From a virus: a stretch of 20,708 nt of DNA. The stretch is from IMG/VR virus record IMGVR_UViG_3300025128_006297, positions 1-20,708 of that record, one strand, 5' to 3'. Both the position numbers and the translations under genes were made by a program. The notes under the pieces were generated by a model. It was not told where the DNA came from and made no database searches. It worked only from the letters and a program-made list of their open reading frames with translations. How positions within the stretch are numbered: the stretch's first letter is position 1; each line of letters starts with the position of its first letter. Below, in pieces: positions 14,013-20,708 of the stretch.

Positions 14013-14317
14013 TGAGTAAGTTTGAAAGAAAGATCCGAAGACAAAAAGAAAAAGAAGCTAGAAAGCGTGAAAGAAAGGAATTCAAGAACGCAGACCAAGA
14101 CCTGGGAGAGAAGGTAGGTCTCTTCAATAAAATCCCAGACCACTGTATGATGTGTCAAGACTCATTCGACAAGACCAATCGAGAGATGGTTTCGTCTTGG
14201 AACGTCGTTGTGAGAGAAGAAGAGGGTAAAGTAAATCTATATTGCCCTGATTGCTGGGACAACGCACAAAAGATCATCAGAGAGTTTCAGGAGAGTTTAA
14301 ATGAAAGAGGCAGTTAG
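14012..14317 (+). CDS. Unassigned zinc-ribbon-like protein with basic N-terminus
   Basis: The 101-residue product begins with a strongly basic helix (KIRRQKEKEARKRERKEFK, residues 7-25). Two Cys-x-x-Cys pairs follow, Cys45/Cys48 (HCMMCQ) and Cys78/Cys81 (YCPDCWD), a spacing that would fit a zinc ribbon. This combination suggests a nucleic-acid or protein-binding adaptor, but no family is recognised. Its ATG overlaps the dUTPase stop by one base (TAATG), behind AGGAG. It overlaps the next gene by 17 bases, so all three are probably translated from one message. Confidence 0.72.
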   Translation: MSKFERKIRRQKEKEARKRERKEFKNADQDLGEKVGLFNKIPDHCMMCQDSFDKTNREMVSSWNVVVREEEGKVNLYCPDCWDNAQKIIREFQESLNERGS

Positions 14318-15311
14318 TTTCGACGATGTCCTGCTCACACCAGGATACTCCGACATCACCAGTCGGTCAGAGATTGATGCAGGGAGTACACTGGGCCAGA
14401 TGTATTTCAGCCTCCCAGTCATCTCCTCCCCGATGGATACTGTCACGGAAGTGGGAATGTCCCAGGCCCTAAGCACCGCAGGTGGAGTAGGTATCATCCA
14501 TCGCTACAATTCAATTGAGGAGCAGGCTGGCCTCGTCGCCAACCTACGCACCCAAAGCATCCATACCGGAGCAGCAATTGGAATTACAGGAGACTTCTTG
14601 GCCAGAGCCGAGACCCTCGTGGAGAACGATGTATCTTTCCTATGTGTTGATGTGGCCCACGGCCATCACGCATTGGTCAAGGGTGCGCTCACTTCTTTGC
14701 GTGAGGCACTCCCAAGCGACACTCACATCATGGCTGGGAACGTTGCGACCCTTCAAGGTTTCAATGACTTAGCCGACTGGGGAGCCAGCAGCATCAGGGT
14801 CGGCATCGGAGGAGGTTCAATCTGTAGCACACGCATCCAAACAGGCCACGGGGTTCCAACACTCCAGTCTGTGATTGAGTGCGCCCAGTCAGATCGGAAC
14901 GCAACTCTCATTGCTGACGGAGGGTTCAAGACCAGTGGTGACATTGTGAAAGCCCTCGCCGCAGGGGCAGACTTCGTTATGCTCGGCTCAATGCTCGCAG
15001 GCACTGAGGAGGCACCAGGAGAAATCATTTATAACAATGGTGCTGCCTTCAAGGTTTACCGAGGCATGGCGAGCAAGGAAGCCCAAGTAGAGTGGAGAGG
15101 TCGCTTCTCTTCCAACGAAGGCGTCACAGGCTGGCTCCCATTCAAAGGTTCAGTCGGCCCAATCCTTGAGGACTTGGAGCGAGGGATCCGAAGTGGTCTC
15201 TCCTATTCAGGCGCAAGGAACCTACTGGAACTAAGAGCCAAGCACGAGTTCATTCGTCAGACACCAGCGGGACAAACTGAAAGCGGTACCCGTATCCAGA
15301 GAAAGTTATGA
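14301..15311 (+). CDS. IMP dehydrogenase / GMP reductase family enzyme (no CBS domains)
   Basis: The 336-residue TIM-barrel protein starts with SFDDVLLTPGYSD, has SLPVISSPMDTVTE and GGVGIIHRY, and carries the loop GIGGGSICSTRIQTGHG with the catalytic Cys175. It ends with GIRSGLSYSGARNLLEL. The two CBS domains common in IMP dehydrogenases are absent. The stretch from the GM-x-S motif to the EG of the flap is about 20 residues, nearer GMP reductases (about 23) than IMP dehydrogenases (about 28), and the PFKG and FIR segments also read GMP reductase-like. I do not see the Arg-Tyr pair that IMP dehydrogenases use. GMP reductase (GMP to IMP) is therefore slightly favoured. Either activity would shift purine nucleotide balance. 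SD GGAG lies upstream of ATG 14301. Confidence 0.85.
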   Translation: MKEAVSFDDVLLTPGYSDITSRSEIDAGSTLGQMYFSLPVISSPMDTVTEVGMSQALSTAGGVGIIHRYNSIEEQAGLVANLRTQSIHTGAAIGITGDFLARAETLVENDVSFLCVDVAHGHHALVKGALTSLREALPSDTHIMAGNVATLQGFNDLADWGASSIRVGIGGGSICSTRIQTGHGVPTLQSVIECAQSDRNATLIADGGFKTSGDIVKALAAGADFVMLGSMLAGTEEAPGEIIYNNGAAFKVYRGMASKEAQVEWRGRFSSNEGVTGWLPFKGSVGPILEDLERGIRSGLSYSGARNLLELRAKHEFIRQTPAGQTESGTRIQRKL

Positions 15312-15983: not shown

Positions 15984-16787
15984 ATGAGTGACAACAAGAA
16001 CTTACTAAACGAGAACACACTTCGCCGTTTTATGAAGCTTGCTTCTCTTCACAGTCTTGCCGATTCAACTGTTGAAAAGGTGATCGTAAAAGAGGAAGAG
16101 ATCGTAGAAGAAGGCTATGGACATAAGAAAGGCGACGACGACCGTGAGGCCATGGCCCATGGCGACGAGGCTCATAGTGATTATGAGACCACAAAGAAAG
16201 GCGACGAGACCGAAGAAGGTATGCCCGCTTACATGCAAGAGGACGAGGCAGAAGAGCTTCGTGCTGATGCAGAGATGGACATGGACGACGCTGCTGACGA
16301 TTTAGCATTAGCCGCAGACGACGACATGGACGCTGCTGAAGACGCCATGGACGCCGCAGAGGACGAGATGGAAGACGCAGAGGCAGACATGGAAGACGCC
16401 GAAGAAGAAGTAGAGATGGCTGAGAAAGAGGCTCTCGCAGTAGACGTAATGGATGCTGTTGCCGCTGCCCTCGACGCTGCCCTTGGAACTGTAACTACAG
16501 TTGAGACTGGCGACGAAGAGCCAGAGCTTGAGCTAGACGACACAGAGGTTGTTGACCTTGGCGACGACGAGCTTGAGATCGAGGACGACGAAGAGCTTGA
16601 GATGGCTGAAATGGCCCACGCAGAAGAAGAAGAGGTAATGGAAGAAGCAGTTGTAAGTCAGATCGTTGATCGTGTTGCAGCCCGCTTAACTCAAGAAGTC
16701 AAAGATGATAAGAAAGATCAATTGGCTGAGAGTCTTGCCGACAAAATAATCTTTGCTCGTCTTACAGCAAAGAGCACCTCTAAGTAA
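15984..16787 (+). CDS. Extremely acidic heptad-repeat protein, possible scaffold/core protein
   Basis: The 267-residue product starts with a basic amphipathic segment (NENTLRRFMKLASLHSL, residues 9-25) and ends with a charged helix (DKKDQLAESLADKIIFARL). Between them about 150 residues are mostly Asp, Glu, Ala and Met. Methionines 115, 122, 129 and 136 are exactly seven residues apart, so the middle is a heptad repeat and probably a long helix. I recall similar openings near head-assembly proteins of marine phages but cannot verify this. A scaffolding or prohead-core role is the first guess, a DNA-mimic or calcium-binding role the alternatives. It probably has its own promoter and a strong AGGAG site. 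Confidence 0.85.
   Translation: MSDNKNLLNENTLRRFMKLASLHSLADSTVEKVIVKEEEIVEEGYGHKKGDDDREAMAHGDEAHSDYETTKKGDETEEGMPAYMQEDEAEELRADAEMDMDDAADDLALAADDDMDAAEDAMDAAEDEMEDAEADMEDAEEEVEMAEKEALAVDVMDAVAAALDAALGTVTTVETGDEEPELELDDTEVVDLGDDELEIEDDEELEMAEMAHAEEEEVMEEAVVSQIVDRVAARLTQEVKDDKKDQLAESLADKIIFARLTAKSTSK
16305..16424 (+). repeat. In-frame 21-base repeats coding the acidic heptads
   Basis: Imperfect 21-base units code heptads such as MDAAEDA, MDAAEDE, MEDAEAD and MEDAEEE (about residues 108-147 of the acidic protein). The gac, gcc, gag and gaa codons recur with small changes, as expected of old tandem duplication. Confidence 0.7.
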
Positions 16788-16799
16788 TAGAGCTTTGGT

Positions 16800-17432
16800 T
16801 TGATTGAGACAAACAAAGAAAAGCTTGAGAGATTAAATGGCGAAATCGAGAAGAACATTCCCGGTTTCGCCATTTTAAGTAAGAGGGATAGCACTCTGAT
16901 GAGACTGTTGTCTAAGCTCTTGTTCTTCAACAAGGGCTTTACGACGCAGTATGTCACAGTGATTTATCCGAAGCTTTACGTCCCAGAGCTTCCCTGGTAT
17001 CCTAACGATCCCAGGAGAGCCTTTGAGGTATTGGCTCACGAGTATGTCCACCTACAGGACACCAAGAGAATGGGGAAGGTGTTTGACCTTCTCTATCTCA
17101 CCCCGCAAATCTTTGCCCTCGCAGCCCTCGGAGCCTTTTGGAACCTATCGTTCCTCTGGGCTCTTCTATTCCTTCTACCACTACCAAGCCCAGGCCGAGC
17201 CTACTTGGAGTTCCGTGGATACAGAATGAGTATGGCCGTTGCGATGTGGCAAGGAAGAAACCCGAACATCGAGTGGATGGTAAAACAATTTACCACAGGC
17301 GCTTATTATTGGATGTTCCCCTTTAAAAAATACTTGACAAACAAGTTCCAAAAAGAGTATAATAGGATTGAAGCTGGTGATTACGAGCCAGAGTTAAAGA
17401 ATATCAAGGACAAGTTTTTTACAAAAGGATAA
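16800..17432 (+). CDS. Membrane-associated HExxH metallopeptidase-like protein, TTG start
   Basis: The 210-residue protein has a zinc-protease signature, His80-Glu81-x-x-His84 in VLAHEYVHLQD, followed by a long hydrophobic stretch (about residues 95-129, FALAALGAFWNLSFLWALLF, probably one helical hairpin). Glu137 in AYLEFRGYRMSM could be the third zinc ligand, as in gluzincins (HExxH...E). This arrangement resembles small membrane-bound metallopeptidases of the M48 kind, but the family is not identified. The active site would lie at the membrane face. Start: only a TTG at 16800 gives the full N-terminus and its ribosome site is weak, so a later start is possible. A promoter for the next gene lies in its last codons. 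Confidence 0.75.
   Translation: MIETNKEKLERLNGEIEKNIPGFAILSKRDSTLMRLLSKLLFFNKGFTTQYVTVIYPKLYVPELPWYPNDPRRAFEVLAHEYVHLQDTKRMGKVFDLLYLTPQIFALAALGAFWNLSFLWALLFLLPLPSPGRAYLEFRGYRMSMAVAMWQGRNPNIEWMVKQFTTGAYYWMFPFKKYLTNKFQKEYNRIEAGDYEPELKNIKDKFFTKG
17334..17363 (+). promoter_or_regulatory. Sigma70-type promoter ahead of the 17438 gene
   Basis: TTGACA at 17334-17339, an 18-base spacer and TATAAT at 17358-17363, inside the 3' end of the metallopeptidase-like gene. The leader to ATG 17438 would be about 68 bases. An ACTTG-ACAAA-CAAGT repeat covers the -35. Confidence 0.65.
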
Positions 17433-17437
17433 AATAG

Positions 17438-17860
17438 ATGTACGAGTTTATGTACTTTGCGTTTGGCATCCTTGCCTACCGCATCATCTCCACAGTTATT
17501 AACTACGGGCACCTCACCGACCACGTCAAATTGGTCAACGAACAGTCCCTTCGAGTTCTAGGGGCAGTCACAGAAGACATTTCTTTTGCCCGAGGCTTAA
17601 AATATAAAACATTAAAAGAGTCAGGGATGGCAGAAGACGAAGTAGAGAAGATTAAAATCGTAGACGACAAGTCTTACCAGGTATGGAAGGACGTAACAAT
17701 CGGTCGTGTTATCTACACATTCCCTAAGCACTACAGGCATTTGATTAAATATATTGACTGGACAGGGGCGATGAAGGAACTAGAGCATATTTATAAAAGA
17801 GACATGCAGCGATTAGAGAAGATTCGTAAGAAAAATCTTGACAAGAAGAAGGAAGGATGA
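17438..17860 (+). CDS. Unassigned protein with one N-terminal membrane helix
   Basis: The 140-residue product opens with a hydrophobic, aromatic stretch (MYEFMYFAFGILAYRIISTV) that fits a single membrane anchor. A soluble helical region follows (VNEQSLRVLGAVTEDISFARGLKYKTLKESG) and then a basic tail (RLEKIRKKNLDKKKEG). No catalytic motif or cysteine cluster is seen and the family is not recognised. The gene lies six bases after the metallopeptidase-like gene behind AAGGAT, and both products are membrane proteins, so a joint role is possible. Its last codons hold the next promoter. Confidence 0.72.
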   Translation: MYEFMYFAFGILAYRIISTVINYGHLTDHVKLVNEQSLRVLGAVTEDISFARGLKYKTLKESGMAEDEVEKIKIVDDKSYQVWKDVTIGRVIYTFPKHYRHLIKYIDWTGAMKELEHIYKRDMQRLEKIRKKNLDKKKEG

Positions 17861-17866
17861 TAAGAT
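17838..17866 (+). promoter_or_regulatory. Sigma70-type promoter that decides the next start codon
   Basis: TTGACA at 17838-17843, a 17-base spacer and TAAGAT at 17861-17866, with TG one base before the -10. The -10 covers the ATG at 17865. Transcripts starting near 17873 would first meet ATG 17901, which has TGGAG six bases ahead. Confidence 0.6.
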
Positions 17867-17900
17867 GGTTTCAACTTTAAAATCAAATTTGGAGTATAAC

Positions 17901-18206
17901 ATGAAAGCATCAGCCTGGAGAATCCCCACTGGCATCAAGGGGGACTATCTTTATCACCTTCAAGTGGACGGTCAACTTGGTCGCTCCAAACGAAAGGTCT
18001 ATAGGATTATGGACGACTGGCGTTTGGTAGGCGATGGCTCTTCTATGGTTATCTTTTCAAGGAGCTTTGATAGCATTGCTTCCTGGGTTAAGTGGGCAAA
18101 GTCTTTTCCATTCGAACTGGAAGAACTTGACTCTAAGACAGATAAACCAAAGAAGATCAAGCTCGGTCTCGCAGCCCAACGGCGCAAAAAAAGGAAAACA
18201 AAATAA
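17901..18206 (+). CDS. Unassigned small basic protein
   Basis: I place the start at ATG 17901 because it follows TGGAG at 17890-17894 and lies downstream of the promoter at 17838-17866. ATG 17865, with GGAAGG upstream, is possible on a read-through transcript and would add 12 residues. The 101-residue product contains KASAWRIPTGIKGDYLYHLQ, an aromatic SWVKWAKSFPFELEEL stretch and a very basic tail (AAQRRKKRKTK). There is no signal, membrane helix or metal motif, and the family is not recognised. The tail suggests nucleic-acid contact. The gene ends directly at the ClpP-like start. Confidence 0.65.
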   Translation: MKASAWRIPTGIKGDYLYHLQVDGQLGRSKRKVYRIMDDWRLVGDGSSMVIFSRSFDSIASWVKWAKSFPFELEELDSKTDKPKKIKLGLAAQRRKKRKTK

Positions 18207-18929
18207 ATGGACTTTGCCAAAAAGAAAAAAACAACAGAAGACGAAGAGCCTAAAGAGGAAAAGGCAGAAGCAACACCCGAGGAGCAAGCAAAAACTTTAG
18301 AAGATATGCTCGCCTCCTCACCAGTGTTGTTCCTAAATTCTCCCCAAGAGCCTCCTCAAGATGAAGTTAAGATCAGAAACCTCACACTCTACGGAGACTT
18401 GGTGGAAGATAAAGCAGCAGAGCTTTGCTTTGCCCTCAATGCATTAAAGGAGATGGGGAAATACAAAACCCTCAAAGATCCCGAAGATGCTACTTCAGCA
18501 ATCATCACGGCCTACAAGCCAATTGACTTTACCATCTCAACCTACGGTGGTTCAGCCCTCGACATGTTCGCCATCTACGATACAATGCGTATGGTGCGTG
18601 AAGAGTGCGGCATCAACACTTTAGGGATTGGAAAGGTTATGTCCGCAGGAGTTCTGCTCCTTGCAGCAGGATCTAAAGGAAAGAGAAAGATTGGCCGCAA
18701 CTGCCGTGTTATGATTCACAGTGTTGTTGGTGGAAGCCACGGAAGCATTCACAACCTTGAGAATGAGATGGACGAGGTCCGTTGGATTCAAGACAAGTAC
18801 AGTGAATTGCTTTGTGCCGAGACAGACATGACTAGATCTTACCTCAAGAAGATCTTAGGAAGAAAAGTCAATGTTTATCTCACGGCGGTCGAGGCGGTCG
18901 AGTTGGGCATCGCAGACGAAGTGGTATAA
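18207..18929 (+). CDS. ClpP-family (S14) serine protease, catalytic Asp not visible
   Basis: The ClpP fold is clear over residues 55-240 of this 240-residue protein: an oxyanion Gly114-Gly115 (TYGGSALDMFAIYDTM), the nucleophile Ser146 in GKVMSAGVLLLAAGSKG and His171 in RVMIHSVVGGSHG, closing with AVEAVELGIADEV. The third residue of the family triad (Asp171 of mature E. coli ClpP) aligns with about Gly218, and residues 209-228 contain no Asp or Glu. A charged, Lys/Glu-rich head of about 30 residues replaces the propeptide, and about 15 extra residues lie near 85-104. It may partner with a host Clp ATPase or act as a head-maturation protease. No ClpX or ClpA is seen. Confidence 0.88.
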   Translation: MDFAKKKKTTEDEEPKEEKAEATPEEQAKTLEDMLASSPVLFLNSPQEPPQDEVKIRNLTLYGDLVEDKAAELCFALNALKEMGKYKTLKDPEDATSAIITAYKPIDFTISTYGGSALDMFAIYDTMRMVREECGINTLGIGKVMSAGVLLLAAGSKGKRKIGRNCRVMIHSVVGGSHGSIHNLENEMDEVRWIQDKYSELLCAETDMTRSYLKKILGRKVNVYLTAVEAVELGIADEVV

Positions 18930-19953: not shown

Positions 19954-20708
19954 ATGACCAAACACTATGATTCGGGAGAGTCCCTCCAACAAAAGATTCT
20001 TGACGGAATCGACATCCTTGCCGACAATGTGGCATCCACACTTGGCCCAAGAGGGCGCAATGTGATCTTACACAAGGCAGGCGTCAATCCTATCGTCACC
20101 AAAGACGGAGTAACCGTCGCTAACTTTGTTGAGTTGGATGACCCGTTCCAAAACGCCGCTGTTCAAATTATGAAGCAAGCAGCATCTGAAACAAACAACA
20201 ACGCTGGGGATGGGACAACCACCTCCACCGTTCTTGCCCGAGCAATCCTCAAGCATTCCCAACGCTTCTTAGCGACCGGGGCTTCGCCCGTTGAACTGAA
20301 GAGGGGCATTGACAAAGCGGTTGCTGGCCTTGTGGAGAACCTGGAAGAGGCTGCTTCACCCATCTCAAGTGCTGAAGACATTGAGCACATCGCAACCATC
20401 TCGGCTAATGGCGACAAGACAATCGGAAAATTAATCGCTACTGCTGTCGATGCTGCTGGGAAGGATGGGGCCATCACTGTTGAGGAGGCACGTGCTGTTG
20501 AGACGACCCTGGACATTGTGGAAGGGTTTCGGTTTGATTCAGGTTATCTATCGCCGCAGTTTATTACGGACCAGCGGAGAGGTTCGGCTTCGTACAATGA
20601 GCCTTACTTCTTGGTTACAGACTATGCCATGGAGAGTGTGGAAGAGCTTCTGCCTGTCCTTGAGGTTGTTGCCCGAGAGGCACGCCCCTTCGTAATTGTT
20701 GCGGAGAA
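19954..20708 (+). CDS. groEL: GroEL chaperonin, N-terminal part (3' end outside window)
   Basis: The frame is open from ATG 19954 to the window edge (251 full codons), covering the equatorial, intermediate and much of the apical domain. The family's key stretches are present: TLGPRGRNVIL, TKDGVTVA (nucleotide-binding Asp), NAGDGTTTSTVLA (catalytic Asp in GDGTT), ELKRGIDKAV, ATISANGDKTIG, DIVEGFRFDSGYLSPQF and LLPVLEVVARE. Up to this point it aligns with bacterial GroEL without obvious gaps. It would form a ring that folds phage proteins in an ATP cycle, with the phage GroES at 7437 or the host's. It has its own promoter. Whether the C-terminal GGM tail is present cannot be seen. Confidence 0.95.
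   Translation, partial: MTKHYDSGESLQQKILDGIDILADNVASTLGPRGRNVILHKAGVNPIVTKDGVTVANFVELDDPFQNAAVQIMKQAASETNNNAGDGTTTSTVLARAILKHSQRFLATGASPVELKRGIDKAVAGLVENLEEAASPISSAEDIEHIATISANGDKTIGKLIATAVDAAGKDGAITVEEARAVETTLDIVEGFRFDSGYLSPQFITDQRRGSASYNEPYFLVTDYAMESVEELLPVLEVVAREARPFVIVAE

Follow-up and report, generated by a model that had tools for sequence, protein, structure and literature searches.

A putative membrane-anchored, gluzincin-type zinc protease family of large bacterial viruses

The protease locus

The window, that is, the whole 20.7 kb stretch of DNA analysed, is a virus record carrying phage nucleotide-metabolism and replication genes. These include dCMP deaminase and ribonucleotide reductase (both recognized by Pfam), a sigma region-4 protein, a DnaE-type polymerase whose matches in GenBank phages are about 28–30% identical, and dUTPase and IMPDH-like proteins read from the sequence. 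The IMPDH/GMP-reductase-like gene (14301–15311) is found in the same place in almost all relatives of the window lineage, and a protein encoded at 1532–2056 matches pyrimidine dimer DNA glycosylase, a repair enzyme (PF03013, E 3e-5). The features of concern here are the following:

15984..16787, + strand: acidic low-complexity protein, syntenic, directly upstream of the protease (open reading frame, synteny)
16800..17432, + strand: putative membrane-anchored gluzincin-type metallopeptidase gene, 210 aa, TTG start (open reading frame, relatives, model)
17037..17051, + strand: HEYVH, predicted zinc-binding/catalytic motif, residues 80–84 (sequence; H80, E81 and H84 invariant in 70 of 70)
17079..17177, + strand: hydrophobic hairpin in the interval from HEXXH to the third ligand, residues ~94–126 (hydropathy, charge, model helices)
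17208..17210, + strand: Glu137, predicted third zinc ligand, in the ExRGY motif (YLEFRGY; invariant in 70 of 70, on helix 131–150)
17438..17860, + strand: partner, all-helical, 140 aa, with one N-terminal membrane helix (lineage-specific; model pLDDT 95.6)
17447..17503, + strand: predicted transmembrane helix of the partner, residues ~4–22 (hydropathy; conserved W6/F7/G10)
17838..18206, + strand: small basic protein, often between partner and ClpP; true start probably ~17865
18207..18929, + strand: ClpP-type serine protease, neighbour in the window lineage (Pfam CLP_protease, 3e-28; synteny)
19954..20706, + strand: GroEL/Cpn60 chaperonin, extending past the window end (open reading frame; tblastn in the relatives' loci; Cpn60 matches in the relatives' records)

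The reading frame of 16800–17432 opens just three codons upstream of the TTG, which is taken as the start because the conserved N-terminus has no other start before it. The original prediction had named a HEYVH motif, a hydrophobic hairpin and a later Glu in YLEFRGY; open reading frame and hydropathy place all three as described. The second protein that it had seen next to the protease gene is likewise there, separated by 5 intervening bases and bearing one hydrophobic N-terminal helix (~4–22). The acidic protein upstream (15984–16787) has a conserved LLNENTLRRFMKLASL-like motif at its N-terminus, as do its counterparts in L002 and L003; it has no significant family match, and its first 46 residues are unmatched in GenBank phages. 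Between the ClpP and GroEL genes, the product of 18973–19833 matches phrog_26930 (E 1e-9) but has no known function.

Relatives and conserved residues

Judging from its relatives, gene 16800–17432 appears to encode a member of an undescribed family of zinc-dependent membrane proteases, apparently one of large bacterial viruses' own. About 70 relatives of the 210-aa protein, with identities down to 21%, are found in IMG/VR, on contigs of up to 529 kb. A scan with the single sequence recovered four; a profile scan with LAHEYVH or EFRGYRM as seed yielded 54 loci, and a scan from a distant member with peptides such as FFNKAFMT and YYFMWPFK yielded 18 further ones. Only nine columns are invariant in the alignment of 70 sequences (K28, H80, E81, H84, P102, P127, R133, E137 and Y169); the fourth position after the Glu of ExRGY is Tyr in 69 and Asn in one.

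Part of this invariance is circular, since those seeds contain residues of the motifs. The 14 non-redundant members found by the third scan only are therefore the more telling subset: H80, E81, H84, K28, P102, P127, R133 and E137 do not vary there either, although the HEXXH motif itself is diversely worded (HEAVH, HEFVH, HELRH, HEIQH, HEGLH, HETIH). The seed of that scan favours Y169, Y170 and M172, which carry no weight in this subset. Conservation of the motif is, as far as the alignments can tell, beyond chance. The gluzincin site had been proposed on the understanding that homologues would retain its two histidines; these, the catalytic Glu and Glu137 are unchanged across all 70 sequences, including the 14 not selected by motif.

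The protease gene is single-copy in each of the 26 whole records. No relative of the window protease or of two distant members was found in GenBank phages, and two scans of 84,980 bacterial and archaeal genomes, both seeded on LAHEYVH, returned none either; Pfam, NCBIfam and PHROG models gave only sub-threshold noise with the window protease. As far as observed here, the family is confined to viral contigs.

The hydrophobic hairpin

Residues 96–126 form the strongest hydrophobic stretch of the protein and are nearly charge-free (0.4 charged residues on average among the relatives); the flanks carry mean net charges of +1.9 and +1.6, and a hydrophobic insert with positive flanks is present in every member checked. 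By the positive-inside rule, these flank charges would put both ends of the hairpin in the cytosol. In the AlphaFold2 model, the hairpin consists of short helices (93–99, 101–113, 116–124), the latter two being 13 and 9 residues long; a bilayer span exceeds their reach, and in the window protein a re-entrant or monotopic anchor is therefore likelier than a full span. To go by the model, the segment may dip only shallowly into the membrane, or it may instead lie buried.

Among the relatives, E137 follows H84 at a distance of 53 to 107 residues, depending on the hydrophobic insert. Two jumbo-phage members, L052 and L053, have an insert of ~50 residues between HEXXH and Glu, and in L052 the hydrophobic segments are doubled to four. 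Variable spacing and the expansion in L052 fit a membrane-embedded insertion that splits the halves of the active site.

Fold and structural comparison

The AlphaFold2 model of the window protease has a pLDDT of 93.4. HEXXH lies on helix 71–91, preceded by strands 53–55 and 58–61, and E137 on helix 131–150, with the hairpin separating the two helices; the order of elements (strand, HEXXH helix, ligand helix) is that of a zincin.

Foldseek against PDB and BFVD gave no significant match for the window protease. After re-ranking with VIA, the top eight rows contain six zinc peptidases: BlaR1 twice (Z 5.2 and 4.8), ERAP2 (4.5), APN (4.2), the putative Zn-dependent peptidase 3c37 (4.0) and ERAP1 (3.9). 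Z values of 4–5 are weak and, according to the tool, may reflect merely a common arrangement; also, Foldseek preselection before VIA may favour HExxH sequences. Even so, six zinc peptidases among eight would be unlikely by accident. The first aligned pairs in VIA are offset by 273 for ERAP1, 290 for ERAP2 and 308 for APN, all M1 enzymes; these are the offsets that put residue 80 on the HEXXH histidine, which is residue 353, 370 and 388, respectively, an agreement that counts once as the three enzymes are homologous. In a profile search of PDB, MJ1213 was matched in register (E 0.46–0.51) and a neutral metalloprotease over the HEXXH helix, both weakly and non-significantly.

The lack of a significant fold match with Foldseek would suit a pseudoenzyme, that is, a membrane protein whose metal site serves structure or regulation instead of proteolysis; this we regard as very improbable, since Glu81, the catalytic residue, is no less invariant than the ligands, unlike in typical pseudoenzymes. 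Conservation of the catalytic Glu besides the ligands favours activity, and the protein is probably an active membrane zinc protease of the gluzincin type, to judge from its conserved residues and the model.

Relation to known families

HEXXH with a C-terminal Glu as predicted third ligand, a feature of MEROPS clan MA(E), is conserved throughout the family, and on these residues the protease is filed as gluzincin-type in that clan, as a putative new family. It is assigned to neither M48 nor M56, because no model matches and E-xxx-D is replaced by E-x-R-G-Y. Comparison with M48 and related families had been suggested. PF01435 finds nothing in the window, where controls were detected, or among the 42 members tested, and ExRGY stands in place of ExxxD; membership in M48 is thus not supported. 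What is M48-like is that hydrophobic segments separate HEXXH from the Glu ligand. Against a shallow M48 set, hhalign gives no more than 64%. PF05569 (M56) has no match in the window either, and one of the 42 members has it at E 0.15.

Like the window protease, HtpX/Ste24 (M48) have HEXXH, then hydrophobic segments, then the Glu ligand, but their motif is ExxAD instead of ExRGY, the distance from HEXXH to Glu is ~79 residues in E. coli HtpX (by sequence reading) as opposed to 53, and their N-terminal transmembrane pair is absent from the window protease. MJ1213 (PDB 4qhf–4qhj), the minigluzincin selecase, shares a strand and the HEXXH helix in its weak in-register profile match, which is not significant; it is soluble, unlike the putatively membrane-anchored window protease. 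Among the M56 enzymes, BlaR1 is a membrane gluzincin whose HEXXH...E site faces the cytosol, with a re-entrant loop and an E242XXXD motif (PMC9834060). BlaR1/MecR1 resemble what is predicted for the window protease, and the BlaR1 protease domain is the top structural match of the model, if a weak one (Z 5.2, rmsd 5.4, 134 residues). BlaR1 differs, however, in its E242xxxD motif, its four transmembrane helices and its sensor domain; the window protease has ExRGY, one short hairpin and no sensor.

Phages do encode other metallopeptidases. Jumbo phages have zincin-like ones (SprT-like, ArdC-like and a "group 1" zincin), for which the available portions of the source do not describe a membrane location (PMC7824862); the window protease family is without a sequence match in GenBank phages. 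A phage-derived metzincin/TIMP-like pair of Listeria resembles the window in that a protease gene has a membrane-associated companion, but that metzincin is secreted and the companion a lipoprotein unrelated to the window partner (PMC8235301). A phage-encoded HtpX- or BlaR1-like enzyme is not described in the literature searched, most subscription journals being outside its scope.

The downstream partner

The original prediction had paired the protease with the membrane-anchored protein downstream. Within the window lineage the pairing stands, the partner gene following immediately (gap −11 to +11 nt) in each of the 21 loci that carry it, but it does not extend to many other relatives: the partner is missing from 16 loci with the same synteny (e.g., L019–L021, L025, L028 and L038) and from every distant relative. 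Its presence requires three changes on the tree, where L045, truncated by its contig end, should not be taken as an absence. Because the partner is missing from many protease loci, the protease does not require it. The basic tail also ascribed to the partner is a feature of the window protein, whose end is Lys/Arg-rich; it is not conserved (L007 ends in KKGRF, L033 in DSEENNT). Conserved residues in the partner alignment are G10, K55, D76, W83, P96 and W108. A scan with the single partner sequence recovered a near-identical copy alone, GenBank phages contain no relative of it, and Foldseek against PDB found nothing.

It is quite conceivable, if short of probable, that the partner serves the protease specifically, as its inhibitor or adaptor, by analogy to known inhibitors of membrane proteases; this would be compatible with the protein upstream being an active membrane protease. 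The constant position directly downstream is in line with such a role, and precedents are SpoIVFB with BofA/SpoIVFA (PMC9042235) and the metzincin with its TIMP-like protein (PMC8235301). Relatives without partner keep the same active site, which argues against it.

One sublineage has an additional P-loop kinase-like gene (FKAVFMFGPAGAGKGYI) that separates the partner from the small basic protein (6997–8217 in L008; likewise in L014, L015, L018, L024, L034 and L041).

Genomic neighbourhood and possible roles

Gene order in the window lineage is dUTPase, zinc protein, IMPDH, two small genes, acidic protein and protease, followed by partner and/or kinase, ClpP, amidase or GlnA, and GroEL. Elsewhere, vWA-domain genes adjoin the protease gene in two loci (L108, 710–2302, Ro60/TROVE-like; L115, 3330–4760, a DUF2201 putative metallopeptidase-vWA), and a small N-acetylmuramoyl amidase gene overlaps its start by a few bases in L100 (4435–4953) and L058 (5444–5968). 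The record G002, which contains L024, has two distinct ClpP-type genes, at 57432 and 88726.

Distances to five gene families were tested in the 26 whole records, taking one record per lineage. Amidase_2 is unusually close to the protease gene in three lineages (387 bp, 1.8 kb and 108 bp) and far in two, with a Fisher p of 0.003 that is optimistic as the amidase had been noticed before testing. The distance to ribonucleotide reductase gave p 0.04 and that to Cpn60, weakly short, p 0.10; distances to ClpP (p 0.40) and terminase (p 0.99) are not short. A proteostasis module with ClpP and GroEL was considered and set aside as suggestive at most, with ClpP near in the window lineage only and GroEL in two lineages.

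The closeness of the amidase bears on the possibility that the protease is linked to lysis or the envelope and works together with the peptidoglycan amidase of the phage, for instance in processing a lysis protein or in eliminating a regulator of the host envelope just ahead of lysis. The amidase gene is within 2.2 kb of the protease gene in three of five amidase-bearing lineages, including records of 302–318 kb, it overlaps the protease gene start in L058, L100 and L101, and a protein near the protease in L099 has an endolysin-like PHROG match. Against this, the amidase is more than 30 kb away in the two other amidase-bearing lineages and is not found nearby in L006, the near-identical relative of the window, and no holin or spanin was identified. 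On balance, a lysis link seems rather unlikely.

A role in virion maturation, with the protease active at the membrane during prohead assembly, could be read from the adjacent ClpP, which matches PHROG "head maturation protease" models, and from the suggestion that additional zincins of jumbo phages serve maturation (PMC7824862). This adjacency is confined to the window lineage, however, and the role is disfavoured because the terminase lies 45–80 kb from the protease gene in seven of the eight records showing both; we consider it very improbable.

Alternatively, the protease could serve counter-defence or host takeover by cutting a host membrane sensor or a membrane-bound defence protein. A membrane active site facing the cytosol, as predicted here, would be suited to this, and host proteins have been suggested as targets of phage peptidases with a patchy distribution (PMC7824862). 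But arms-race genes would be expected to turn over rapidly, whereas this gene occurs in single copy and its core does not vary, and none of its neighbours was recognized as defence-related, in a comparison made without a defence library. Cleavage of host sensors or defence proteins thus appears distinctly unlikely.

Proposed function

For the protein as an active gluzincin-type membrane protease, we propose the following. The hairpin between the HEXXH and third-ligand helices would anchor the protease in the inner membrane with its active site facing the cytosol; zinc would be bound by H80, H84 and E137, and water activated by E81. Its mode of action would be like that of the HtpX/Ste24 (M48) and BlaR1 (M56) catalytic cores, in a separate family. 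During infection it would most likely cleave membrane- or envelope-associated proteins in the portions that face the cytosol, for turnover or remodelling, and in the window lineage the co-translated one-helix partner probably positions or restrains the protease. Turnover or remodelling of membrane proteins is ranked first among the possible roles, before a lysis link, cleavage of host sensors and virion maturation, in this order. Only tentatively do we go further, to a scenario doubtful as a whole, of a virus-specific family of membrane zinc proteases, single-copy in large phages (contigs of about 50–529 kb), which remodel the host inner membrane or the lysis machinery and are controlled by a one-helix partner in one lineage.

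Proteases working at membranes are central to stress sensing and envelope control in bacteria. If the proposal is true, a conserved family with an intact site in many lineages of large phages would represent an unstudied route by which phages alter the host membrane.
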